NCBI GenBank assembly: GCA_029262065.1
Contig: JAJDAC010000041.1
Coordinates: 124,001-188,000 of the forward strand
Source: Candidatus Krumholzibacteriota bacterium
GTDB lineage: Bacteria > Krumholzibacteriota > Krumholzibacteriia > JAJRXK01
DNA length: 64,000 bases
Direction: 5' to 3'
Made by a program: the position numbers and the translations under genes. Under the pieces are notes generated by a model. That model saw only the letters and a program-made list of their open reading frames with translations. It had not been told where the DNA came from and searched no databases. Below are positions 49,957 through 64,000 of this stretch, piece after piece. Each line of letters starts with the position of its first letter. Positions within the stretch are counted from its first letter, which is position 1.

Positions 49957-50670
49957 ATGAGTGCCACCGGCCCCAGCCCCAAGACCAAGCGCACCCGCGA
50001 TCCCGAACGCACGCGAGCCGCCCTGCTCTTGGCGGCGCGCAGCGAATTCATGGAGCACGGATTCAATGGAGCCCGTACCAGCACCATCGCCAAGCAGGCG
50101 GGGGTTCCTTCGGGGCTCATCTACCACTACTTCGAAAACAAACAGACACTCTACCAAGCGGTCATGGAGGGCTCCCTCGCGCCCTACTTCGAGAACCTGC
50201 ACGAGTTGCTCGAAGGCGCCACAAGCCCTGATCTTCAACTGCTCGAGAGCTCGATCCGCATGTACTTCGAGTTTCTGCAGGACAACCCGCACGCGGCACG
50301 ACTCATGGCCTGGTGGCACGCCGACGAAGGTTGGCGTCGTGGGGCACCGATAAAAGAAGCCGAACTGTGCGCCGACACGCAGTCGCTGGGCCTGCAACGC
50401 ATTCGCGAGGCACAGGCCGCGGGTTGCATCAAGCCGCACCTCGACCCCGGCTTCGTGGTGAAGGTGTTCGTGGACTTGTGCATGCAGTGGCACGTGTCGG
50501 TGGGCGAGCACGTAGCCGCCCACGGCGGCGACCCCGACCACGCTCCCTCGGTTCGCGCACTCGGGGAACGTTACATCGACCATGTCATCGAAATCTTCAT
50601 GAGCGGGGTTCGTGCCGACTCAGCTCCCACCCCCCCACCATCCAACTCCTCCGAGGAGAAGCTGTCATGA
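49957..50670 (+). CDS. TetR family regulator of the first RND efflux operon
   Basis: The ATG at 49957 gives 237 residues. The N-terminal helix-turn-helix shows TRAALLLAARSEFMEHGFNG and STIAKQAGVPSGLIYHYFENK, the TetR pattern. The C-terminal part would bind an inducer such as an efflux substrate. The gene overlaps the membrane fusion protein gene by ATGA, so it is first in the efflux operon. A palindromic operator-like site lies between it and the divergent MoaD-like gene and could control both. Confidence 0.92.
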   Translation: MSATGPSPKTKRTRDPERTRAALLLAARSEFMEHGFNGARTSTIAKQAGVPSGLIYHYFENKQTLYQAVMEGSLAPYFENLHELLEGATSPDLQLLESSIRMYFEFLQDNPHAARLMAWWHADEGWRRGAPIKEAELCADTQSLGLQRIREAQAAGCIKPHLDPGFVVKVFVDLCMQWHVSVGEHVAAHGGDPDHAPSVRALGERYIDHVIEIFMSGVRADSAPTPPPSNSSEEKLS

Positions 50671-51764
50671 ACGAACAGTCCGTACCGCGCTCGAACAAGC
50701 GCCTTCTTTCCGCTCTTGCCGGCGTATTGGTGGTTGGTGTCGCCGTCATCACCGTGACCCAGTTCGGTCGCAGCGCGCAAGCCGACACCAACGCCGTTTC
50801 TACGACCCGCGCGGCGATCACGGTCGAAACCACGGTGGCCACATCCGTCGCCGCGTCCGAACGGCCCCAAGGGACCGGGACCCTCGAGGCGAGCCGCTCG
50901 GTGTCGCTGGCGTTCGCGGTCGGCGGCGTCGTCCACAAACTTGTGGCGGCTGAGGGCGGCTGGCTTTCCAAGGGAGACCCACTGGTGGAATTGGACCAGG
51001 TTCCCTTCCGCAGCGCGGTCGATCAACACGCCGCGCGCGTGCGCTTTCTGGAAAAGAGCCTGGCGCGCAGTGAGATGTTGCTCAGCAACCAGGCCTTGTC
51101 GCCCGAAGAATTCGACGCTCAGACGGCCGAGCTCGACGCAGCCAAAGCGCAGCTGAGGCTATCGCGTTGGAACCTGGAACGTGCCACTCTGCGCGCTCCG
51201 TTCGACGGTCGCGTTGCCCGCCGCCACGTCGAACGGGGCCAGGTTCTCAGCGCGGGCGTACCCGTGGCTGACATGCTCGACACGCGCCGACTCGAGGTCT
51301 GGACCGCGGTGTCCGCGCGCGAGGCCAGCGCCATTGCCGCCGGCCAACCCGTGACAGTTCGAGCCATCGACCGCGACGACGTAGCCATTGCCGGCGTGGT
51401 AGATCACGCCCCCGTTCGCAGCGACGTACGTTCAGGCACCGTCCCCGTTCTGGTAACCCTGCCCGACGAAGCGCACGGGTTTCTGGCCGGCATGGTGGTT
51501 CAATGCACGTTCACCACCAATCGCACCACCGCCCGATTGTCGTTGCCTACCCGGTCAATTCGGGTCCAGAACGACGGCAACTTCGTAATGCGGGTGGTTG
51601 ACGGGCGCGCTCGCCGGGTTGCCGTGCAGCTGGGTGCAATCGGCGAGGCCGAGGTGGAAATCGTAAGTGGAATAGAGGCGGGAGATGAAGTCATCACGCG
51701 CGCTCCCGACCGACTGCGCGACGGCGACGCCGTCGTGGTTTCGACCACCCTTTCCGCGAGATAG
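50667..51764 (+). CDS. RND efflux membrane fusion protein (periplasmic adaptor), first operon
   Basis: The 365-residue adaptor has one N-terminal membrane anchor (about 13-33), a barrel-sandwich region with QGTGTLEASRSVSLAFAVGG and a long coiled-coil hairpin (QHAARVRFLEKSLARSEMLL and AELDAAKAQLRLSRWNLERA). LRAPFDGRVARRHVERGQVL closes the lipoyl-like domain. It would bridge the pump and the outer-membrane channel. GAGGAGAA precedes the ATG. It is separated from the pump gene by three bases. Confidence 0.92.
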   Translation: MNEQSVPRSNKRLLSALAGVLVVGVAVITVTQFGRSAQADTNAVSTTRAAITVETTVATSVAASERPQGTGTLEASRSVSLAFAVGGVVHKLVAAEGGWLSKGDPLVELDQVPFRSAVDQHAARVRFLEKSLARSEMLLSNQALSPEEFDAQTAELDAAKAQLRLSRWNLERATLRAPFDGRVARRHVERGQVLSAGVPVADMLDTRRLEVWTAVSAREASAIAAGQPVTVRAIDRDDVAIAGVVDHAPVRSDVRSGTVPVLVTLPDEAHGFLAGMVVQCTFTTNRTTARLSLPTRSIRVQNDGNFVMRVVDGRARRVAVQLGAIGEAEVEIVSGIEAGDEVITRAPDRLRDGDAVVVSTTLSAR

Positions 51765-51767
51765 ATC

Positions 51768-54700
51768 ATGAGTACGACCGAGTTCGCCGTACGCAATTAC
51801 CGCTTCATCATCGTGGTCACGGCCGCGACGCTGGCGCTGGGAACTTTGGCCTACGTCGCCATGCCACGGCAGGAAGACCCCGCCCTGAAGGCGTTCGGCT
51901 CCACCATCACCGTCATCTATCCGGCGGCCACGCCCGAAGAACTTGAAGACCGGGTGCTCGAGCCGATCGAACGCGCGGTACACACACTGGTGGAGATCGA
52001 CGAGATCGAATCAACGGCGGGCGATGGCGTGGCCGTAGTAGTGGCGCGCTTCCGCGACGATGTAGACAAGGACCGCGCGTACGATCTTGTGGTACAGCGC
52101 GTTTCCGAAGCCCGCGATGAACTGCCCGACGACGTGCTCGAAGTGCGCGTGCGCGAGATCAAGCCCACCAACGTGGTGGTCATGCAGGCCGTATTGCACG
52201 GTCCCGGCGCCACGCATCGCGAACTGCGCGAGTGGGCCGAAGAACTCGAAGCGCGTTGGCGGGTCCTGCCCGACGCCAAATTGGTGGAACTGGAGGGCGT
52301 GCAAGAACAGGAGATCCACGTACTGGTGCAGCCCGAACGCCTGGCCGCCGCGGGTATTTCGCTGGGCCAGGTGGCGCAGGCGTTGGCTGTGGCCAACGGC
52401 GACACGCCCGCGGGTTCGCTGCAGTCAGGGCCCGACCGCCTGACCATTCGCCCCAACCTACGTTTCCGCGACCTCGACGACATTCGCAACACGGTGATCG
52501 CCTCGATCGACGGCCGCGCAGTACGCGTCCAGGATCTGGCCGAGGTGGCCTGGGGAGATCAGGACGCGATCTACCTGGTACGACACGACGGTGAGCCCGC
52601 GGCTATGGTCACCATGACAATGAAGGATGGCAGCAACGTTTTCGACCTGGCCAAACAAGCACGAGCCACGTTGGTCAAGTTCGAGCAGGACATACCCGAA
52701 CACCTGACCGTTTCGTTGGCTCTCGACCAATCCGAGGACGTTTCCGAGCGGCTCGGTCGGTTCGGCCGTAGTCTCCTGTTCGGTGCCCTGATCATCTCGG
52801 CGTTCGTGGCTCTGCTGGTGGGTTGGCGACCGGCGGTGGTCATCGTGACCGCCATGTTGCTTTCGGTGGGCATCGCATTCTGGTTGATGCACGCGCGTGG
52901 CATCGCCCTCCAGCAAATGTCCATCGCCGGGCTGGTCGTGGTACTGGGCCTGCTGGTCGACAACGCCATCGTCGTGGTCGAGGCCATTCTACAAAAGCGC
53001 CAAGGCGGATTGGACTCGCGCGCCGCCGCCATCGCCGGCACCGATCGCGTAGCCTCGGCCGTGGCCAGCAGTACCGGAACCACGGTCGCCGCGTTCGTCC
53101 CCATGCTGTTCATGGCGGGTTCCGTGGGCGACTTCACGCGCGACATCCCCAGTGTAGTTGTCCTTGTGCTCGTAGTGAGCCTGGCCGTGGCCCTCTTCGT
53201 TACCCCCCTCGTTGCCGTTTATGTGTTTCGCGGCAAAGGCTCAAAGGGATTCGAAACCCCGGCTTCGCGTTGGCTGCACCGGCAGGCCACCAGCGGTAGC
53301 TACGCACGTTTGCTGAGCCTGACGTTGGTGCACCCGAAATCGACCATCGCACTTCTGTTGCTGGGTGCCATGGGCACGCTGGCGCTTTCGCCACTGGTGG
53401 GAATGAACTTCTTCCCCCGGGCCGACGACAAACCGCAGTTCCTGGTGCGCGTCAAGTTGCCGCAGGGTAGCAGTCTGTCCAACACCGACCGTAACGCCCG
53501 TGAGGTCGAGTCGTACTTGTTGGAGCAGGACTGGACGGTAGGCGTCACGACCAACGTCGGCCGTGGCAATCCCATCATCTACTACAATCTGCTGCGCAAC
53601 GCCGAGGCGCCGCACCGGGCCGAACTGCTGGTCAAGGTCCCACGCGAACGCTCCATGGATATTCCTTCGTTCGCGCGCGAGCTGCGTGAACGCTTCGCAT
53701 CCCATCCGGAACTGGAAGTCGAGACCAAGCTGCTGGTGCAGGGACCACCGGTGGGCCTTCCCGTTTCCATTCGCTTGTACGGGCCCGACCTGGACCGACT
53801 CCGAGAGCACGCCGATACGGTGGCCATGCGATTGCGCGAAATACCTGGAGCCATCAACGTCGCCCACGAACTGCGCCCCGGCCCGGCCCGCCTGGACCTA
53901 CGAGCCGACCCCGTGAAACTTCAGAAGCTGGGGCTGGACAGTGGGTTCCTGGCGCGAGAGATTCGCGCCGCCATGGCCGGCGTGCAAGCCACTACTCTGC
54001 GCCGGGACGATAGCGACTACGGCGTGGTGGTGCGCGTGGCCCCCGAGGGCCACGAGACTCGCGCCGACCTGGAACGCCTGCATGTCCCCGTTCCCGGGGG
54101 GACCACGGCACCGCTTGCGCAACTCACCCGACCCACGCTGTCATCCACATTCGCGCAGATTGAACACACCGACCTTGAACGTTCGGTGGTCGTGGGAGCC
54201 GATCTCGACGGCCGACTGGCCACGGAGATCGTGGCCGATCTGCTGCCCTACGTGGAAGATCTGCCCTTCAATGCCAACGAGCGATTCGAGGTAATCGGCG
54301 AAGACGAAGAACGCGACGCGGCTTTTCTGAGCATGCTGAACAACGTGGTCATTGCCATGGGACTCATCTACGGAATTCTCGTGCTGCAGTTCCGTTCGTT
54401 CGCACTGCCATTCATCATCTTCACGTGCATTCCCGTGGCCCTCGCGGGGTCGGTGCTGGGCCTGCTCATGGGTCAGTGGCCGTTTGGCTTCACCGCGTTC
54501 ATTGGGCTATTGGCTCTGGTAGGAATCGTGGTGAACGATGCCATTGTACTCGTGGACCAGGTCAATCAACTGCGGCGCGGTGGGGCCGATCTCATCGACG
54601 CAATACGCCAGGGATGCGCTTCGCGCGTACAGCCCATACTGCTGACCACGCTCACCACCATTGCCGGCCTGCTTCCGTTGACGCTGACCGGCGGCAGCAT

Positions 54701-56231
54701 GTGGGGTCCCATGGGATGGGTCATCATCGGCGGACTGCTGGCTTCGACCCTGGTTACCCTGGTCATGGTGCCAGCCATGTATTTACTGATGGAGCGTGGT
54801 CGTGAGACTTCAACCGCACGTAGTGGCTTGCGCTGGCCCTGGGCCAAACCGATGGTTTCGACCGCCATTGCCATGCTCGTGGTTGGGAGTATGTCCCTGG
54901 CCAACGCGCAGCCTGATAGCGAGAACCAGGAGCCACCGCGTGTGCGCGCGTGGGAAAACGGTCGGGACCTGAAACTCACCTTGGCCGAGGTGGTGGCTCG
55001 CATCGACAGCCACAACCTTGAAGCCGCTACGCTCGAAGCCGACCTGGCCGCGGCCGACGCGCGTTGGCGCCAGGCGAAAGCAGCTCGTTGGCCATCGTTG
55101 ACGCTGGGCGCCGACTACGTTTCGACCAACGATACTGGTACAACATTCGGTCTGGCGGTTCGAAACGTGCAGGATCCCATGGACCTGTTTGCGTTCGACG
55201 GCAGCGCCTCGGCCGAGCTGTTGCGCGCCCGCGCCAGTATCCAGTGGCTCCTCTACGATCGCAGTCGTGGCTTCGTGGTGGCCGCGGCCAAATCATCGCG
55301 TGCAGCCACGGCCGAGGGCCGCCGGGCCGCCGTGGCTCAGTTGCAATTGGCGGCGGTGGCGCAGTACTTCCTGGCCATACAGCTGGCGCAGGAAGAGGAA
55401 GTTGAGCTGGTCGCCTGGAAAGCAGTGGAGCGGGAATTGGCCGATGCCCGGTTGCGCGAAGAGGCCGGACGCGGACTACGGGCCGATGTTCTGGGCCTGC
55501 AGGCGCGCAGCGCCGAAATCGTTGCGCAGCTCAGCAATGTACAAGCGGCAAGCGAAGTGGTCGCCGGCCGCCTGGCCGAGCTTCTGAACCTGGAAGACGG
55601 GGTGCGCGTCGTCCCCTTGACCGACGCGACCATTCAGCCCACCGCCGTTTCCACGTTGGACGAACTGTTCGCCTTGGCTCAGGAAACACGCGCGGAGTTG
55701 GCCGCGTCGGAACTAGCGGTTGATGCCGTAGAGGCCGGCGTGGGCGCGAGCTCCGGCGCGCGATGGCCGCAGTTGGTGGCTGAACTCAGCGCCGACACGC
55801 TCATGCCCGAAGCCAATCTCGATCAGTCGAGCGAATCTTACACGGCACTGTTGGGGCTGCGCTGGCGTCCGTTTGAAGGTGGCGCCATCGGCGCTCGCGT
55901 GGGCGAGGCCAAAGCCCAGCTACGTCGGGCGCAGTACGAAGTGGAGCGTGAGCGGCTTGCCATCCGCAAACAGGCCCTGGACGCGTGGACGAACCTGCAA
56001 CGCACGCAGCGCCAACGCGAGGCGGCCCAATTGCAGTTCGACGCCGCCCAGGAGGCCTATCGCATTGTGTCGCTACGGTTTCGCGAAGGACGCGACACGT
56101 TGAGTCGCTTTCTGGACGCCGAGGCAAGCCTCACCGGCGCACGTACCGCGTTGGTTCGATCCCGAGCGCAGATGAATGCCGCGCAGGCACAGGTACGTTG
56201 GGCCGGGGGCATGGAACTGGTGGTAAACTGA
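51768..56231 (+). CDS. RND pump fused in frame to a TolC-like outer-membrane factor
   Basis: A single 1487-residue frame holds two proteins. Residues 1 to about 1013 are a complete RND permease with two groups of membrane helices and the TM4 motif GLLVDNAIVVVEAI, in which the second Asp of the usual VDD is Asn. Then comes a full Sec-type signal peptide (from Met1029, cleavage predicted after ANA at 1047). Residues about 1060 to 1487 form a TolC family channel with two repeats (LTLAEVVARIDSHNLEA and the coiled-coil regions). No stop codon or ribosome site separates the parts. It may be processed at the internal signal. Substrates are unknown; the pump works with the adaptor before it. Confidence 0.88.
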   Translation: MSTTEFAVRNYRFIIVVTAATLALGTLAYVAMPRQEDPALKAFGSTITVIYPAATPEELEDRVLEPIERAVHTLVEIDEIESTAGDGVAVVVARFRDDVDKDRAYDLVVQRVSEARDELPDDVLEVRVREIKPTNVVVMQAVLHGPGATHRELREWAEELEARWRVLPDAKLVELEGVQEQEIHVLVQPERLAAAGISLGQVAQALAVANGDTPAGSLQSGPDRLTIRPNLRFRDLDDIRNTVIASIDGRAVRVQDLAEVAWGDQDAIYLVRHDGEPAAMVTMTMKDGSNVFDLAKQARATLVKFEQDIPEHLTVSLALDQSEDVSERLGRFGRSLLFGALIISAFVALLVGWRPAVVIVTAMLLSVGIAFWLMHARGIALQQMSIAGLVVVLGLLVDNAIVVVEAILQKRQGGLDSRAAAIAGTDRVASAVASSTGTTVAAFVPMLFMAGSVGDFTRDIPSVVVLVLVVSLAVALFVTPLVAVYVFRGKGSKGFETPASRWLHRQATSGSYARLLSLTLVHPKSTIALLLLGAMGTLALSPLVGMNFFPRADDKPQFLVRVKLPQGSSLSNTDRNAREVESYLLEQDWTVGVTTNVGRGNPIIYYNLLRNAEAPHRAELLVKVPRERSMDIPSFARELRERFASHPELEVETKLLVQGPPVGLPVSIRLYGPDLDRLREHADTVAMRLREIPGAINVAHELRPGPARLDLRADPVKLQKLGLDSGFLAREIRAAMAGVQATTLRRDDSDYGVVVRVAPEGHETRADLERLHVPVPGGTTAPLAQLTRPTLSSTFAQIEHTDLERSVVVGADLDGRLATEIVADLLPYVEDLPFNANERFEVIGEDEERDAAFLSMLNNVVIAMGLIYGILVLQFRSFALPFIIFTCIPVALAGSVLGLLMGQWPFGFTAFIGLLALVGIVVNDAIVLVDQVNQLRRGGADLIDAIRQGCASRVQPILLTTLTTIAGLLPLTLTGGSMWGPMGWVIIGGLLASTLVTLVMVPAMYLLMERGRETSTARSGLRWPWAKPMVSTAIAMLVVGSMSLANAQPDSENQEPPRVRAWENGRDLKLTLAEVVARIDSHNLEAATLEADLAAADARWRQAKAARWPSLTLGADYVSTNDTGTTFGLAVRNVQDPMDLFAFDGSASAELLRARASIQWLLYDRSRGFVVAAAKSSRAATAEGRRAAVAQLQLAAVAQYFLAIQLAQEEEVELVAWKAVERELADARLREEAGRGLRADVLGLQARSAEIVAQLSNVQAASEVVAGRLAELLNLEDGVRVVPLTDATIQPTAVSTLDELFALAQETRAELAASELAVDAVEAGVGASSGARWPQLVAELSADTLMPEANLDQSSESYTALLGLRWRPFEGGAIGARVGEAKAQLRRAQYEVERERLAIRKQALDAWTNLQRTQRQREAAQLQFDAAQEAYRIVSLRFREGRDTLSRFLDAEASLTGARTALVRSRAQMNAAQAQVRWAGGMELVVN

Positions 56232-56232
56232 A

Positions 56233-59085
56233 CTACGCGGCCACCCGGTTTCGCCGTACCGCGAATGCGGCGATCAACGCCACCACGACTGGCATGGCCC
56301 ATACCCAGGGTATGCTCGCCGTCCGTCGCTCCAAGGGGACCAGCGTCGAACCATCGCCAATGAGTACGTAACCAGCCCAGTAGAACGGGTGCCGGGTACG
56401 CGGATTTTCCCGGAGTTTTGCCTGCGCACGAGAGAGCGCTCCGGCCACCGAGTGGCCGTTGGACAGTTCCCGGTAGAACACCCGCATGAAACCACTGGCT
56501 GTACCGTCATCCAGCGGCCACAACGTGGCCACGACCACCGACACCTGCGCACTGAGAAATGCGTGGGCCAGACCCTGCACGCCCTCGCCGGCCAGGATGC
56601 GCCCGCCTGCCGATTCGCAACCCGACAGCACGGCGAGGGTCGCATTCAGGTCCAGGCCGGCGATCTCGGAGGCCCGCAGATACCGCTGCTCCGGCGCGTC
56701 GGTTTCGGATCGCAACACCGCCGCACCCGTGAGCGAGCTTACCGATCCCAGATACGAACGCTCGGGAGCGGCCAACAGCAACCCCGAACGCCACGGTCTC
56801 TGTCCATCCACACGGGTATGTGCGGCCAGATGCAGCACGCGACCCTGGGACAACACCGACTCATCGGGCAACACACCCATGTGGGTGGCTACGCGTTGGA
56901 ACCGGCGGCCGAGGTCCCTGACTTCATCCATTGCGCCCAACAACTGCTGGCCGGCGTCGTTGGCACCGCCGGCAATGGCGACGATATCGGTGGGAACGTC
57001 GCCGGTCGGCAAGTCCCGTCGCCGCAGTCGCTCGAGAATGGTGACCGAGGGAATGCGTTGGATTTCCTTGTTGGCCAAGCCGAGATCACGACCCGCTTCA
57101 CACTGGGCCAGGCTGGCCAATGGCAATAGGTGCAAGGGCCCATCGGGAAGAAACAGGATTCGGTCGGCGGCGGCGACCTCTTCACGCACGCCAGAAAACA
57201 ACATCTCGATGACCGCGGTCGCGGCCGCGTCCAGGATCGTGTGGTCGGCGGCAGGAACCGACTCCGGGTCCGACAGCAACTGTTGATGCAAGAGAAGTTT
57301 CTCGGCCAGCTCGTTTCCGCCCGGAAGCTCGACCCATCGGCAGGAAGAACGAGTCACCGCGAACAACAATGACGCGGAATCACCAACGTACGTATCGAGC
57401 AGCAGTTCACCTTCCTGCAATAGGTTGTTCTGCAGCTCATCCAGCCTAGGGGGACTGAACTCGGCCTCGTGTACCTCCACGGCGGGACCCACCATGCGCT
57501 CCCACAGCGTGCGCGCCTTGTAGCGTTGCGCGGCCTCGAACGCAGCCCTGGTACGTTCAGCCGGGGATACCGTAAGCGGATGGTTCGCGAGGTTGCGTGC
57601 CAGATCTATGTATACCTCGCGCCCAAATGAGCCCCGCTGCTCGCGCCACTCGGGGTCATCGGGCGTACTTCGTTCTTCCTCCCACGCTCCCGAAGCTCGT
57701 TTCAACACGGCCGCCACGCTGTCGGGCATATCCATCGACTCGTAGCATTCGGCCTGCCCGGTCAGCGATTCCAGCATGGCAAGTGTGTGCCCGATTCCCC
57801 GTGCCTCGGCCTCGATCTCGATCCACCGCCGAAGCGCATCGGCGGTATTTCCCATGCGAAACTGAATGTCGCTGAGCGCGTCGCGCATGGGCAGGTACTG
57901 CGTAACCGAGGCGCGACCGGCCAGGTCCTTTTCGGCCTGCAACAGCAGGTCCCGGGCCAGCTGCTCTTCGCCCTTGGCATCCTTCACATCAGCCAGCCGG
58001 TGTAGGGCCCTGATCTCGCCCGTTACATACTGTTGGGCACGGGACAACTCGAGTGCTTGATTCAGATGAACTTCGGCCTCATCGAGGCGATCGGTCTTGA
58101 GAAGAAAATAGCCCATGTGTATGTGCACGTTGCACACCGCTTGTGCGTCTCCGAGCGACGGCACCTCCGCGAGCAACTCGCGCAGCAAGGCCTCGGCCTC
58201 GTCGTCACGCCCGATTTGCGCAAGGGTGTGCGCGTAGTTGGTTCCCACGGTGAACACGTTGTTCACCTCGCCCATTTCCTTGGCGTACTCGTAGTTCGCC
58301 TTGTACGCTCGGGCGGCTTCACTGGGATCGCCAAGATGATTTTCCAGGTAGGCGAGGTTGGTCAGTCCCTGGATGAGACCGTACGGGTAGTCGATCTCGC
58401 GACTCAACGCCACGCAACGGTCGAAACACTCTCGCGAGGCCGCGAATCCTCCCTGGTAACTGTGGACAAGGCCCAGCATGTTCAACGCCATGACCTCATC
58501 GGCTTTCATTTCTTTCTGTCTTGTCAATGCCACCGCCCACTCCAGATGCTCGCGGGCTATGTCATAATCGCCCGCGAACGCGGCGCGACGACCCAACGCG
58601 CTGCGCGCGCGGGCCTGGTAGACCTCATCATTGCGAAGCTTGGCCAGCTCGAGCACGCGGGCGTAGAGCGTGTCGGCGCGCGCGACATCGCCGGCGCCTT
58701 GCACCGCGAGCCCCAACTTGTACAACTCACTGCAAAGCCGGGTGGTGTCGCGCAGCGCCGCGGCCATCTCGGCGCCATGCGCGCCGATGTCGATCGCCAC
58801 CTGTAGCTGACCGAACTTGCGCAACCAATACGACTGCAGACGCATGGCGTCGAGCGTCGCCACCGAATCGGCGGCGGCCTCGGCTTCGTTCCGCAGGTCG
58901 GCCAGAAACGCGATCGCCCCATCAACGTCTCCGGTGCGACGGATAGAGTCGGTAGCCGCGAAACCCATGCGCCCCACACGCTCTCGGAGGGTTGGTTCTT
59001 CTTGGGCCGTGGACACCGCCGCAACGCTGGCCACCACCAGCGCGACCATCAGAGCAACGCGATTTGGGGATCGGGTGGGCGACAC
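56233..59085 (-). CDS. TPR-CHAT protein, membrane-anchored caspase-like peptidase
   Basis: The GTG at 59085, six bases after GGGAG, gives 950 residues; a TTG at 59223 would run into the divergent promoter. A signal peptide ends near STAQ. TPR-like helical repeats fill about 70-420. The CHAT (caspase-related) domain has LHLAAHTR with His756 and LSGCESAGG with Cys823, an intact catalytic pair, and VATLWPLDD. One membrane helix (about 922-942) near the C-terminus is followed by basic residues. CHAT proteins include proteases involved in cell death and phage defence. Export of this one to the periplasm is unusual. It converges on the RND-OMF gene with one base between. Confidence 0.88.
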   Translation of the reverse strand: MSPTRSPNRVALMVALVVASVAAVSTAQEEPTLRERVGRMGFAATDSIRRTGDVDGAIAFLADLRNEAEAAADSVATLDAMRLQSYWLRKFGQLQVAIDIGAHGAEMAAALRDTTRLCSELYKLGLAVQGAGDVARADTLYARVLELAKLRNDEVYQARARSALGRRAAFAGDYDIAREHLEWAVALTRQKEMKADEVMALNMLGLVHSYQGGFAASRECFDRCVALSREIDYPYGLIQGLTNLAYLENHLGDPSEAARAYKANYEYAKEMGEVNNVFTVGTNYAHTLAQIGRDDEAEALLRELLAEVPSLGDAQAVCNVHIHMGYFLLKTDRLDEAEVHLNQALELSRAQQYVTGEIRALHRLADVKDAKGEEQLARDLLLQAEKDLAGRASVTQYLPMRDALSDIQFRMGNTADALRRWIEIEAEARGIGHTLAMLESLTGQAECYESMDMPDSVAAVLKRASGAWEEERSTPDDPEWREQRGSFGREVYIDLARNLANHPLTVSPAERTRAAFEAAQRYKARTLWERMVGPAVEVHEAEFSPPRLDELQNNLLQEGELLLDTYVGDSASLLFAVTRSSCRWVELPGGNELAEKLLLHQQLLSDPESVPAADHTILDAAATAVIEMLFSGVREEVAAADRILFLPDGPLHLLPLASLAQCEAGRDLGLANKEIQRIPSVTILERLRRRDLPTGDVPTDIVAIAGGANDAGQQLLGAMDEVRDLGRRFQRVATHMGVLPDESVLSQGRVLHLAAHTRVDGQRPWRSGLLLAAPERSYLGSVSSLTGAAVLRSETDAPEQRYLRASEIAGLDLNATLAVLSGCESAGGRILAGEGVQGLAHAFLSAQVSVVVATLWPLDDGTASGFMRVFYRELSNGHSVAGALSRAQAKLRENPRTRHPFYWAGYVLIGDGSTLVPLERRTASIPWVWAMPVVVALIAAFAVRRNRVAA

Positions 59086-59218
59086 GGAAACTCCCAGCGC
59101 ACTCGAGGGTGTCGGCTCTCGTTCCCTATTGTGATCGACCAGCGACCCGGGAATCACGCTGAATCCATATTTGCCAGCAATCCAGATTCGCCAGCCATGA
59201 GCCTTGCGGCGACCAGGA

Positions 59219-59249
59219 TTCAAACGTACGTTTCAATCACTCGTTTGAA
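59219..59249 (+). promoter_or_regulatory. Operator-like inverted repeats before the second TetR gene
   Basis: TTCAAACG at 59219-59226 is repeated as its complement CGTTTGAA at 59242-59249. The left part also contains the perfect palindrome AAACGTACGTTT (59222-59233). The GTG start of the regulator lies 8 bp downstream, so binding would block its own promoter or translation start. Confidence 0.6.
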
Positions 59250-59257
59250 AGGACCCC

Positions 59258-59887
59258 GTGAGCCAGCTCGAGACCAAGGATCGGATTCTCGACGCCGCTG
59301 AGAACCTCTTTAGTGACAAGGGGTTCAGCGCCACGTCGTTGCGTTCGATCACGACCCTGGCCGGCGCGAATCTGGCCGCGGTGAACTACCATTTCGGATC
59401 GAAAGACGCCCTCATCCAGGCGGTGTTCCGACGCATTCTCACGCCCCTCAACAACGACCGACTCCAGCGACTGGACGCGTTGGAGGCTCGCGTCCAGGAG
59501 CCCTCGGTCGACGAAGTCCTCACCGCGTTTCTGACCCCGGTGGCCACGCTCTGGAGTGAATCGAAACGCGGTCCGGTGCTCGTACGTTTGTTTGCGAAAA
59601 CGTTTGCTGAGCCTTCCACCAATATCCGCGACCTCGTGTTCAGTGAATTCGAAGGCATCGCGGCCCGTTACATTCCCGCGCTGGCCCGCGCGGTACCTCA
59701 CCTCAGCCGCCGCGAAGTCATGACGCGACTGCACTTCCTGATCGGCAGCATGACCCACACCGTGACCAACTGGGACATGTTGGCCGGAGCGCCCGGCGCC
59801 GACGAACTCATTGAACAGATGGTGACCTACGGAGCGGCGGGATTTCGCGCGCCGGCGGCGCTGACTACGTCAAAGGGAACGCCATGA
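59258..59887 (+). CDS. TetR/AcrR family regulator of the second RND efflux operon
   Basis: A GTG start after GAAAGGA gives 209 residues. The helix-turn-helix TKDRILDAAENLFSDKGFSA and ITTLAGANLAAVNYHFGSKD is typical of AcrR/CmeR relatives with a DUF1956-type C-terminus. Its ATGA overlap with the outer-membrane factor gene marks it as first gene of the second efflux operon. It is divergent from the TPR-CHAT gene, with 172 bp between the starts. Confidence 0.92.
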   Translation: MSQLETKDRILDAAENLFSDKGFSATSLRSITTLAGANLAAVNYHFGSKDALIQAVFRRILTPLNNDRLQRLDALEARVQEPSVDEVLTAFLTPVATLWSESKRGPVLVRLFAKTFAEPSTNIRDLVFSEFEGIAARYIPALARAVPHLSRREVMTRLHFLIGSMTHTVTNWDMLAGAPGADELIEQMVTYGAAGFRAPAALTTSKGTP

Positions 59888-61338
59888 AGAAGGCTTTTGC
59901 ATTGGCCACGTGGCTTTCGATCGCCGGCTGCGCATCGGCGCCGTCCGTGAATCATCCCAACCTCGAGGTCAGCGTGCCCGACACCTGGGAGATTGCCGGA
60001 ACTCGCAATGTCAGCGACGGCTGGTGGATGGAGTTCGGTGATCCCGCGCTCGACATGGTCGTGGAGACGGCGTTGTCGGACAATCTCGACCTGCGCGTGG
60101 CCGTGGGCCGGGTAGAGGCAGCGCTAGCCCAGGCCGGCATCGACGGGGCCGCGCTATGGCCGCAGATCCAGGCCGTCGGCAGTGGAAGTCGGCAGAAAAA
60201 CATCTTCGTGGGCTTGCCGATCCCCAGTGCCGACGGTGGTGTGATCACCAACTACTTCAACAGCTACTCGGCGTCGCTGCAGGCGAGCTGGGAACTGGAT
60301 CTGTGGGGCAGAGTCCGAAACATGAAAGGCGCCGCACTGGCCGAGGTGCAAGCATCGGCGGCCGACCTCGCTGGGGCCCGCCTGTCAATCGCCGCTCAGA
60401 CCACCCGCGCCTGGCTGACCGTGCGAAGCGCGCGGATGCAGCTGGATCTGGCCCGGGTCACGCTCAAGGCTTTCGAGGGCACCGCGAATATCGCCTGGGA
60501 ACGTTACAAGCGGGGACTCCTATCGTCGGTCGACGTGTACCTCACACGCAACAGCACCGCCAGCGCCGTCGCGCTGGTGGCTCGGCGAGAGCAACAGTTG
60601 CAGACCGCGGTGCGTCAGTTGGAGGTCCTGTTGGGACGCTACCCCGCCGGAATCCTCGAGGATGGTACCCAGCTTCCCAGACTCAACTCGCCGGTTCCCG
60701 GTGGATTGCCCTCGGAGCTGGTAGCCCGACGCCCCGACTTGGCCGCCGCCGAACGTCGGTTGGCCGCCTCTGGCTCACGGATTTCGATTGCCAAGGCCAA
60801 CCGCTATCCGCAGTTCAGCCTGACCTCCAGCGTCGGTACCACCAGCGATGAACTGAGCGATCTGACCAACGGCAATTTCAGCGTGTGGAATCTGGTGGGC
60901 AACATCGTTCAGCCGTTGTTCCAGGGCGGTCGCATCAGGGCCCAGATTCATGGTGCGCAGGCACAAGAACGAATCGCCCTGGCGAACTACGCGCAGTCGG
61001 TACTCGACGCCTACGCCCAGGTAGAAATCAGGCTGGGTTCGGAACTGACGCTGTCGCGCGAAGAAGAAGCACTGGCCAATGCGGCCAGCGAAGCACGTTC
61101 GGCGTGGGATCTGGCGGAAGAGCGCTACCAACTCGGTGTACAGGACCTGCTCTCCGTGCTCGAATCGCAACGACGTTCGCTGAACGCCGACTCATCGCTG
61201 ATCGAAGCCCGCCGACAACGATTGCAGAATCGAGTGGACCTGTACGTCGCATTGGGCGGCGGCTTCGAGTCACCCACCAATACAACATCAACTATCGACC
61301 GGGCCCCGGGCCCGACAGACACGAAGGGTCGGCCATGA
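59884..61338 (+). CDS. Outer-membrane factor lipoprotein (NodT/OprM family), second operon
   Basis: The 484-residue protein has a lipoprotein signal ending IAGC (Cys16). WWMEFGDPALDMVVETALSDN is a family hallmark near the N-terminus of OprM-type channels. Two long coiled-coil hairpins follow, with the repeated region ELVARRPDLAAAERRLAASG. It forms the trimeric outer-membrane duct of a tripartite pump. It overlaps both neighbours by ATGA: the TetR gene before and the adaptor gene after. Confidence 0.92.
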   Translation: MKKAFALATWLSIAGCASAPSVNHPNLEVSVPDTWEIAGTRNVSDGWWMEFGDPALDMVVETALSDNLDLRVAVGRVEAALAQAGIDGAALWPQIQAVGSGSRQKNIFVGLPIPSADGGVITNYFNSYSASLQASWELDLWGRVRNMKGAALAEVQASAADLAGARLSIAAQTTRAWLTVRSARMQLDLARVTLKAFEGTANIAWERYKRGLLSSVDVYLTRNSTASAVALVARREQQLQTAVRQLEVLLGRYPAGILEDGTQLPRLNSPVPGGLPSELVARRPDLAAAERRLAASGSRISIAKANRYPQFSLTSSVGTTSDELSDLTNGNFSVWNLVGNIVQPLFQGGRIRAQIHGAQAQERIALANYAQSVLDAYAQVEIRLGSELTLSREEEALANAASEARSAWDLAEERYQLGVQDLLSVLESQRRSLNADSSLIEARRQRLQNRVDLYVALGGGFESPTNTTSTIDRAPGPTDTKGRP

Positions 61339-62513
61339 ACAAGGCCATGAAAGTCGTCCTGCCGCTTCTCATTCTTCTGGGTGGGGCGCTGGGTGGCTTC
61401 GCTATCATCTCGGCCAAGCCCGAGGTGAAGACCCAGCCCGCCGACGCCCCCGCCCCCGTCGTGCGCACGGTAACCGTCGAACCGGTAACCCACCGCTTCA
61501 CGGTACGCGCCCAGGGAAGCGTGGAGCCACGCATCGCAAGCACCCTGGTAGCTGAGGTTTCGGGCCGCGTCACCAGCACCGCCGACGCATTCGTGTCCGG
61601 TGGCTTCTTCAAGAAGAACGAAGTACTGCTGACCATCGACTCCAGCGACTACGAGGCTGCGTTGGCCCGAGCCGAAGCGGAATTGACCGCCGCCCAGCTC
61701 AGCTTGGCGCGGGAACAAGAAGAAGCAGTCGTAGCCGAGCGCGAATGGAAGCGCCTGGACAGCGGCGAAGAGCCCTCGACCCTGGTGAAACGGGAACCAC
61801 AACTCGCCAATGCCCGGGCGTTGGTAGCCGCGGCCCGGGCCGCGGTCGAAAAATCAAGGAGGGACCTGGCCCGAACCCGTATCCGCGCGCCATACGACGG
61901 AAGAGTGCGTCAAAAGCAAGTTGACCTGGGCGGCTACGTCCGCGCGGGATCGCCCGTCGGAAACGTCTACGCGGTCGACGCCGCCGAAATCCGGCTGCCG
62001 CTTCCCGATGCCGATCTGGCGTACCTCGACTTGTCGTTCAGTTATCGCAACGATAGCACCCCCAGCCAGAATGCCACCACGGTTCTCGTGCACGCAACGT
62101 TCGGGGGGCGATCGCATACGTGGCGTGGAGTTCTCGATAGAACCGAAGGCGAAATCGACGCGCGTACTCGCATGGTCAACGTAGTGGCTCGCGTGGACGA
62201 TCCCTACGGTCGTGGCGACAACCCGGAGCGCCCGCCACTGGCCGCGGGCATGTTCGTCGAAGCCGAGATCCTGGGGCGCGAAGTCAATCAGGTGTACCTG
62301 GTTCCTCGCGATGCCCTGCGCGATGACACAACCGTGCTGGTGGTCGACAACGACAACACCCTGCGCTTCCGACGCGTCGAAGTGCTTCGCCGTGGTTCAA
62401 CCACCGTGGTTATCGCCAGCGGCCTGAGGCCGGGCGAGCGAATCTGCATCAGCCGACTGGAAACCGTGGTCGAGGGGATGCGTGTTCGCGTGGCCGGCGG
62501 GGAAACGTCATGA
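61335..62513 (+). CDS. RND efflux membrane fusion protein, second operon
   Basis: The ATG at 61335 overlaps the stop of the channel gene and gives 392 residues. An N-terminal anchor (about 6-25) precedes a lipoyl-like and hairpin region (SGRVTSTADAFVSGGFFKKNE, then ALARAEAELTAAQLSLAREQE) and ARTRIRAPYDGRVRQKQVDL. It connects the pump to the outer-membrane factor. It overlaps the RND gene by ATGA. Confidence 0.92.
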   Translation: MNKAMKVVLPLLILLGGALGGFAIISAKPEVKTQPADAPAPVVRTVTVEPVTHRFTVRAQGSVEPRIASTLVAEVSGRVTSTADAFVSGGFFKKNEVLLTIDSSDYEAALARAEAELTAAQLSLAREQEEAVVAEREWKRLDSGEEPSTLVKREPQLANARALVAAARAAVEKSRRDLARTRIRAPYDGRVRQKQVDLGGYVRAGSPVGNVYAVDAAEIRLPLPDADLAYLDLSFSYRNDSTPSQNATTVLVHATFGGRSHTWRGVLDRTEGEIDARTRMVNVVARVDDPYGRGDNPERPPLAAGMFVEAEILGREVNQVYLVPRDALRDDTTVLVVDNDNTLRFRRVEVLRRGSTTVVIASGLRPGERICISRLETVVEGMRVRVAGGETS

Positions 62514-64000
62514 ACGCCATGATTCGTTGGTTCGCCCACAACGATGTTGCCGCCAATCTCCTGATGGTGCTGATCATGGCCAGCGGCGTGGTCGCCTTTT
62601 CCAACATCAAGCAGGAAATCTTTCCCGAGTTCGAGTCCAACGCCATCACCGTGTCCGTCGTGTACCCCGGGGCCACGCCGGCCGAGGCAGAAGAGTCCAT
62701 CTGCATGCGCATTGAAGAGCAGATCCAAGGGCTCGACGGTGTGAAGCAAATCCGATCTACCGCCACCGAGAATGTGGGCGCGGTGATCGTGGAGGTACTG
62801 GAAGACGCCGACGCGCGCGAGGTGCTCGACGACGTGAAGAGCCGCGTCGATGCCATCGACACGTTCCCCGAAGACGCGGAACGACCCGTGGTCAGCGAGC
62901 TTCAGATCACGCGCCAGGTCCTGAGCATTGCGCTATCTGGTGATACCGACGAGCGAAGCCTGAAGGAACTGGGCCAGCGACTGCGCGACGATATCGCCTC
63001 GCTCGACGGCATCACCCTGGTCGATTTGGTAAACGTCCGACCCTATGAAATATCCGTCGAAATCTCCGAGGAAGCACTGCGACGCCATGGACTCACCATG
63101 GACGCGGTGGCGCAAGCCATTCGCGTTTCGTCATTGGACCTGCCGGGAGGATCGGTCAAGACCGAGGGCGGAGAAATCCTTCTACGCACCAAAGGGCAAG
63201 CGTATCGTGGCGATGAGTTTGAGGACATTGCCCTCGTGTCGCGATCGGACGGTACGCGGTTGCGCCTGGGCGACGTGGGAACCGTGATCGACGGCTTCGA
63301 GGACACCGACCAATCGACCCGTTTCAACGGCAATCCCTCGGCCATGGTGAAGGTCTACCGGGTTGGTGACCAGGCGGCTCTGGAAGTCGCGGCTACGGTA
63401 AAGGAATGGGTCGCGGCGAACGAGTCTCGCATGCCGGCCGGAATCGATCTCACCATCTGGGATGACAACTCGGTGTACCTGAAGGGCCGTATGGATCTCA
63501 TGGTCCGCAATGGTCGCAGTGGATTGATCCTGGTGTTCCTGGTGTTGGCTCTGTTCCTGCGCTTTCGACTGGCGTTCTGGGTCAGCGTGGGCGTGCCCAT
63601 ATCGTTCCTGGGCGCCATCTGGTTCATGCCCATACTGGGCGCGTCGATCAACCTCATCTCGTTGTTCGCGTTCATTCTGGTACTGGGAATCGTGGTCGAT
63701 GACGCCATCGTGGTGGGCGAAAGCATCTACACCCACCAGAAGACAACCAAGGACCGTCGCAAAGCAGCCGTCGACGGCACGTTGGAAGTGGCTCTACCCG
63801 TGGTGTTCGCGGTTCTGACCACCATTGCGGCGTTCTACCCGCTACTGAACGTTCCGGGCACCACGGGACAGATCTGGAAAGTCATTCCACTTATCGTAAT
63901 TCCCACGCTGCTGTTCTCGATGCTCGAGTCGAAGCTGATTCTGCCCTCTCATCTGGCCCACCAGAACACGGCCGAGCGCGCGGTTGAAAGGTTCCTGCAC
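62510..64000 (+). CDS. RND efflux permease, second operon (5' part, runs off the right edge)
   Basis: The first 497 residues are visible. They start with a membrane segment (NDVAANLLMVLIMASGVVAF), a periplasmic loop with VSVVYPGATPAEAEESICMR, and the TM4 motif LGIVVDDAIVVGESIYTH with both Asp residues kept, as needed for proton relay. This part matches the HAE-type RND pumps. Substrates are unknown. The gene order TetR, channel, adaptor, pump forms a complete tripartite system under one regulator. Confidence 0.92.
   Translation, partial: MNAMIRWFAHNDVAANLLMVLIMASGVVAFSNIKQEIFPEFESNAITVSVVYPGATPAEAEESICMRIEEQIQGLDGVKQIRSTATENVGAVIVEVLEDADAREVLDDVKSRVDAIDTFPEDAERPVVSELQITRQVLSIALSGDTDERSLKELGQRLRDDIASLDGITLVDLVNVRPYEISVEISEEALRRHGLTMDAVAQAIRVSSLDLPGGSVKTEGGEILLRTKGQAYRGDEFEDIALVSRSDGTRLRLGDVGTVIDGFEDTDQSTRFNGNPSAMVKVYRVGDQAALEVAATVKEWVAANESRMPAGIDLTIWDDNSVYLKGRMDLMVRNGRSGLILVFLVLALFLRFRLAFWVSVGVPISFLGAIWFMPILGASINLISLFAFILVLGIVVDDAIVVGESIYTHQKTTKDRRKAAVDGTLEVALPVVFAVLTTIAAFYPLLNVPGTTGQIWKVIPLIVIPTLLFSMLESKLILPSHLAHQNTAERAVERFLH

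Follow-up and report, generated by a model that had tools for sequence, protein, structure and literature searches.

Can an efflux pump of the inner membrane and its outer-membrane channel be encoded as one polypeptide, and how would the channel then reach its own membrane? The question is raised by a gene on a contig of a Candidatus Krumholzibacteriota bacterium, of which a stretch of 64,000 nucleotides (hereafter the window) was analysed. A sequence-only reading of the window had described a pump and a TolC-like channel in a single reading frame, the two being joined by an embedded Sec signal peptide. Neither RND pumps nor TolC channels are new in themselves, and the recurrence of their fusion is the main interest of the present analysis.

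Gene organization

The fused gene (Table 1) starts with ATG and runs through 1487 codons with no stop or frame change between its halves, as inspected codon by codon across 54600-55100. Pfam places ACR_tran first and OEP after it, so that a complete RND permease and a complete TolC-fold channel lie in one uninterrupted frame, as the sequence-only reading had claimed. The stop codon of the adaptor gene lies 3 bases upstream of the ATG of the fusion. Orthologues in two genomes of the same family, G003 (58% identity) and G002 (53%; Candidatus Krumholzibacteriota bacterium Dive96_bin3.147, record JAJRXK010000108.1), are colinear over residues 1-1484 and free of stops. The family genomes are drafts, at least one of them metagenome-assembled. 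All three loci share the order TetR-MFP-fusion followed by TetR-OMF-MFP-RND, the regulators in G003 and G002 being assigned by eye.

Table 1. Features of the efflux region, in positions of the window
Feature	Position	Strand	Basis and remarks
TetR-family regulator	49957..50670	+	Pfam TetR_N; overlaps adaptor start; gene order shared with G003 and G002
Periplasmic adaptor (MFP), separate gene	50664..51764	+	TIGR01730 RND_mfp, 199.9 bits, above cut-off
Fused gene: RND permease, embedded signal peptide, TolC-type outer-membrane channel	51768..56231	+	1487 aa, single ORF; orthologues in G003 and G002
RND permease domain, TriC/MexK-like, HAE type	51780..54791	+	Residues 5-1008; Pfam ACR_tran, 559 bits
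Short, net-positive cytoplasmic linker	54792..54851	+	Residues 1009-1028; 5 K/R vs 2 D/E before the hydrophobic segment
Embedded signal-peptide h-/c-region	54852..54908	+	Residues 1029-1047; signal peptidase I predicted to cut behind residue 1047 (ANA|QP)
Mature TolC-type channel (predicted)	54909..56228	+	Residues 1048-1487; Pfam OEP, AlphaFold2, Foldseek
CHAT-domain protein with TPR repeats	56233-59223	-	Between the two efflux operons
TetR-like regulator, second operon	59258..59887	+	Not part of the fused pump; ORF read by eye
NodT-type OMF, second operon, separate gene	59884..61338	+	TIGR01845, 342.6 bits, above cut-off
Adaptor, second operon	61338..62513	+	TIGR01730, 177.6 bits
RND permease, second operon, unfused	62510..64000	+	Pfam ACR_tran; continues past the window end; full gene unfused

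The neighbouring second operon encodes its OMF, adaptor and RND permease in separate ORFs, as had also been read from the sequence. Its unfused OMF begins with MKKAFALATWLSIAGC, which contains a lipobox, and is probably a lipoprotein; the fused channel instead has a site of the signal peptidase I type. The CHAT/TPR gene stands tail-to-tail with the fusion, their stop codons 1 base apart, and is missing at the same place in G002.

The permease half

The ACR_tran match covers profile positions 3-1020 of 1021, a full-length domain, and the permease half shows 12 hydrophobic peaks. Its best matches in the PDB are 6vej, MexK and MdtB, the former two being nearest; 6vej is TriC, and its deposition names it a probable RND efflux transporter. 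Among NCBIfam models RND_permease_2 scored 451.7 bits and CusA/CzcA 325.7 bits, both under cut-off, and trees placed the permease away from CusA and nearer to the HAE than to the HME references. The CusA metal-binding methionines 573, 623 and 672 are absent from the window permease, the aligned positions being R, R and a gap. By these comparisons the pump classifies as HAE-type and not as HME (CusA/CzcA), in agreement with the earlier assignment, and we infer drug- or lipid-like substrates for it.

In TM4, D398 aligns with AcrB D407, and the TM11 Arg/Thr positions are kept. The position of AcrB D408 is occupied by N, and that of K940 by Asn, as it also is in the second RND permease of the window; because of the latter substitution, the proton relay would be unlike that of AcrB.

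The channel half

Pfam OEP matched the C-terminal third of the fusion in two stretches (130 bits). The AlphaFold2 model of the channel (mean pLDDT 88.3) combines long helices with four long strands and is poorly predicted or disordered solely at the signal and linker. A Foldseek search with this model returned TolC, OprN, OprM and CusC as best matches (E 1e-15 to 1e-19), at about 16% identity to TolC. The model is thus that of a whole TolC fold. In the tree the fused channel groups not with the OMFs of sister pumps but, on a long branch, with an OMF of G002. This nearest unfused OMF (L077 1643-5971, G002:C71) adjoins ORFs annotated by eye as HlyD-like and DHA2-like MFS, which suggests that the closest kin of the fused channel may serve an Emr-type pump.

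The junction and its predicted cleavage

The junction of the window fusion reads ...MYLLMERGRETSTARSGLRWPWAKP-MVSTAIAMLVVGSMSLANA|QPDSE..., and the channel proper starts at about residue 1048 to 1063. The charge of the linker agrees with the positive-inside rule. All eight fusions of the phylum carry a hydrophobic 12-mer between the domains (mean Kyte-Doolittle 1.7-3.3). A net-positive linker comes before it, and a few residues behind it stands a motif of small residues, which is a strict AxA in seven of the fusions and CLA in G001. The corresponding motifs in fusions of other phyla are ASA|QE, AHA|DT, GLA|AD and CLA|ET. As a control, AxA followed 5 of 73 hydrophobic peaks within the RND halves of the same proteins. 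Correctly bounded tails of unfused permeases held no such segment with motif, and two apparent exceptions were mis-bounded, truncated matches. The sites were called from hydropathy and motif, and in this form the embedded Sec-type signal proposed earlier was recovered directly before the channel.

The published intermembrane distance is 21 nm (PMC4754349), and the lipidated N-termini of OMFs are located at the outer membrane (PMC13082787). The OMF match of the G003 and G002 fusions starts at or before the motif, leaving no linker. Since the channel there begins at the motif and 21 nm would have to be spanned, cleavage would be all but necessary for a channel that works in the manner of TolC, which supports the earlier statement that the channel must be cut free to reach the outer membrane.

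Proposed assembly

The locus most probably encodes a two-gene tripartite pump, consisting of a separate adaptor and a pump-channel polyprotein that signal peptidase I would cut once to release the channel. We infer that the junction is exported by Sec, that cleavage and assembly in the outer membrane follow, and that the two parts are supplied 1:1. The RND part would insert as a 12-helix permease with a cytoplasmic C-terminus; as RND C-termini are cytoplasmic, an extra segment there would be correctly oriented for channel export. The next hydrophobic segment, the thirteenth, would then enter the Sec translocon and export the channel part, and signal peptidase I would cut at ANA|QP. The freed TolC-type chain would pass to the outer membrane, trimerise there and, with the separately encoded adaptor, complete an RND-adaptor-OMF pump whose three components stem from two polypeptides. 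The stoichiometry of such pumps is 3:6:3, with RND and OMF at 3:3 and six adaptors (PMC4754349). The fusion may accordingly be seen as uniting exactly the two components of equal number, while the six-copy adaptor stays apart.

Alternative explanations

An improbable alternative is that translation of the channel begins anew inside the gene, at ATG 54852 (codon 1029) or at a GTG or TTG close by, so that the shared frame would be an extreme gene overlap. ATG codon 1029 does sit right before the hydrophobic stretch, but a start there would yield a signal devoid of Lys and Arg. The codon is also unconserved: G003 has only GTG codons and no ATG in this place, and the sole upstream ATG of G002 has no Shine-Dalgarno match (+1.0 kcal/mol). 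When the free energy to the anti-Shine-Dalgarno was calculated at in-frame ATG, GTG and TTG codons from which a product would still contain the signal segment, the internal sites before the signal in type I genes were about at background (ATG 1029 of the window at -2.8 against a median of -2.7 kcal/mol), whereas the true starts of G003, G002, G011 and G044 scored -9.5 to -13.8. The start of the window fusion is itself weak (-3.0 kcal/mol) and probably coupled to the adaptor stop just upstream, which makes a missing strong internal site indecisive there; the argument from weak internal sites is therefore moderate for the window and stronger from its relatives. In G001, where a GTG at codon 1012-1013 scores -9.2, which is the 5% background level of that gene, the case against an internal start is less clean. 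For the window, the earlier remark that the two halves are not divided by a convincing ribosome site is upheld, ATG 1029 being of background strength and not conserved.

It is very unlikely that the hydrophobic segment instead stays in the membrane as a thirteenth transmembrane helix and tethers the channel covalently to the pump. With 18 uncharged residues the window segment is moderately long, enough for one membrane crossing, but a cleavage motif of small residues is correctly placed in every fusion examined, and the G003 and G002 proteins have no linker that could bridge the 21 nm to an OMF N-terminus at the outer membrane. A sequencing or assembly error that erased a stop or frameshift between two ordinary genes, of which the earlier reader had warned and which a draft genome invites, is effectively refuted: the same fusion occurs in separately assembled genomes at 53-58% identity, and unrelated fusions occur in other lineages. 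The cleaved pump-channel polyprotein is accordingly retained as the preferred reading.

Distribution and origin of the fusions

A scan of genome contigs found a single fused relative, L024, identical with the G002 genome. Profiles built from the fusion sequences were used to search 80 genomes of the phylum and about 209 genomes of other phyla. A fusion was counted only if the RND and OMF profile matches shared one frame, because long stop-to-stop frames mean little in GC-rich genomes; two candidates per genome were scored, and the counts are lower bounds. A long open frame by itself was rejected as proof, many 1400-aa frames over RND genes being single genes with spurious extensions and the OMF in another frame. 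G082 and G141, which had been scored as apparent fusions, were also rejected, each consisting of two ORFs split by a stop.

Homologues with the same architecture, which the sequence-only reading had proposed to look for, were found beyond G003 and G002 in further RND subfamilies and in other phyla. Within the 80 phylum genomes, type II fusions occur in G011 and G044, with partial ones at contig ends in G007 and G052, and a type III fusion occurs in G001. At least four fusions were found among the genomes of other phyla (G161, G189, G155 and G200); both domains were confirmed by Pfam in the last three, whose loci have GC contents of 46%, 48% and 40%, respectively, so that the long frames there are no effect of composition. 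In G189 and G155 an adaptor gene (Pfam) lies directly upstream of the fusion. The type II fusion of G044 (L023 4060-8481) has one in-frame TAG in its permease half, for which a nonsense mutation, a sequencing error or recoding are candidate causes; the parts examined of G011, G007 and G052 have none.

Parsimony on the RND tree calls for about six gains or losses of the fused state; at least four are imposed by well-supported branches, with three within the phylum, and type III groups with G189 across phyla. Losses or transfer can stand in for some of the gains. For the nearest unfused permeases of the phylum (G026 and G049) the OMF is encoded separately and upstream, the order being OMF-[adaptor-sized gap]-RND, whereas in the fusions the channel lies downstream. 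Because of this position, and because the OMFs of sister pumps are not the tree neighbours of the fused channel, we tentatively suggest that the fusion arose with a changed channel partner rather than by simple loss of a stop codon.

These observations lean, if slightly, towards a repeatedly evolved class of polyproteins across phyla, in which pump and channel are translated as a single chain that is divided at an internal signal peptide, which would fix their synthesis at 1:1 and free the channel beside its own pump. If the chain is cleaved as predicted, a trans-envelope pump would be built from two polypeptides, with one channel dedicated to one pump in place of the usual sharing of TolC. 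How an internal signal peptide is recognised when twelve transmembrane helices precede it becomes testable, as does matched synthesis of pump and channel as the reason why fusions recur. For annotation, the fusions are a warning that the channel of such pumps can be hidden within the permease gene.

Comparison with known systems

The tripartite logic is shared with the HAE-type systems TriABC-OpmH and MexJK of Pseudomonas aeruginosa, which contain the nearest solved permeases (6vej and MexK); their permeases end after TM12 and the OMF has its own gene, whereas the window permease continues into the channel. AcrAB-TolC and MexAB-OprM consist of the same three components, including the TolC fold found in the channel half here, but encode pump, adaptor and channel in separate genes, and the proton-relay Lys is Asn in the window. 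A parallel in processing is the cytochrome b/c1 polyprotein fbcH of Bradyrhizobium, in which a polytopic inner-membrane protein is followed by an internal signal that is cleaved to release a second subunit. Both of its products remain at the inner membrane and neither forms a transporter, while the window channel is predicted for the outer membrane. A literature search found no paper on this polyprotein, and the literature searched held nothing on point on RND-TolC fusions or a fused HAE-type architecture.

Fusions of CusA/CzcA-type permeases with TolC, in the domain order RND then OMF, are reported for Bacteroidota. They involve heavy-metal permeases, whereas the window permease has no CusA methionines and groups elsewhere. 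The sequence-only reading had cited such fusions as precedents, which could not be confirmed: in a plasmid search with E. coli CusA and with a Haliscomenobacter CzcA-like permease and its TolC as queries, the CusA-type loci inspected in Haliscomenobacter, Hymenobacter, Pontibacter and Magnetospirillum were all separate genes, those of the Bacteroidota plasmids having separate TolC genes. None of the 5000 best plasmid records covered 80% of the fused protein, and the fused channel half had no plasmid match. On two of these plasmids, from Haliscomenobacter (L082 6001-9218) and Hymenobacter DG01 (L084 3679-6916), the CusA-type permease is annotated as a pair of adjoining genes, the first of 429 or 450 aa and the second of 641 or 630 aa, with a TolC gene following at once; it would seem that these RND permeases are split by nature, which is the opposite of a fusion.
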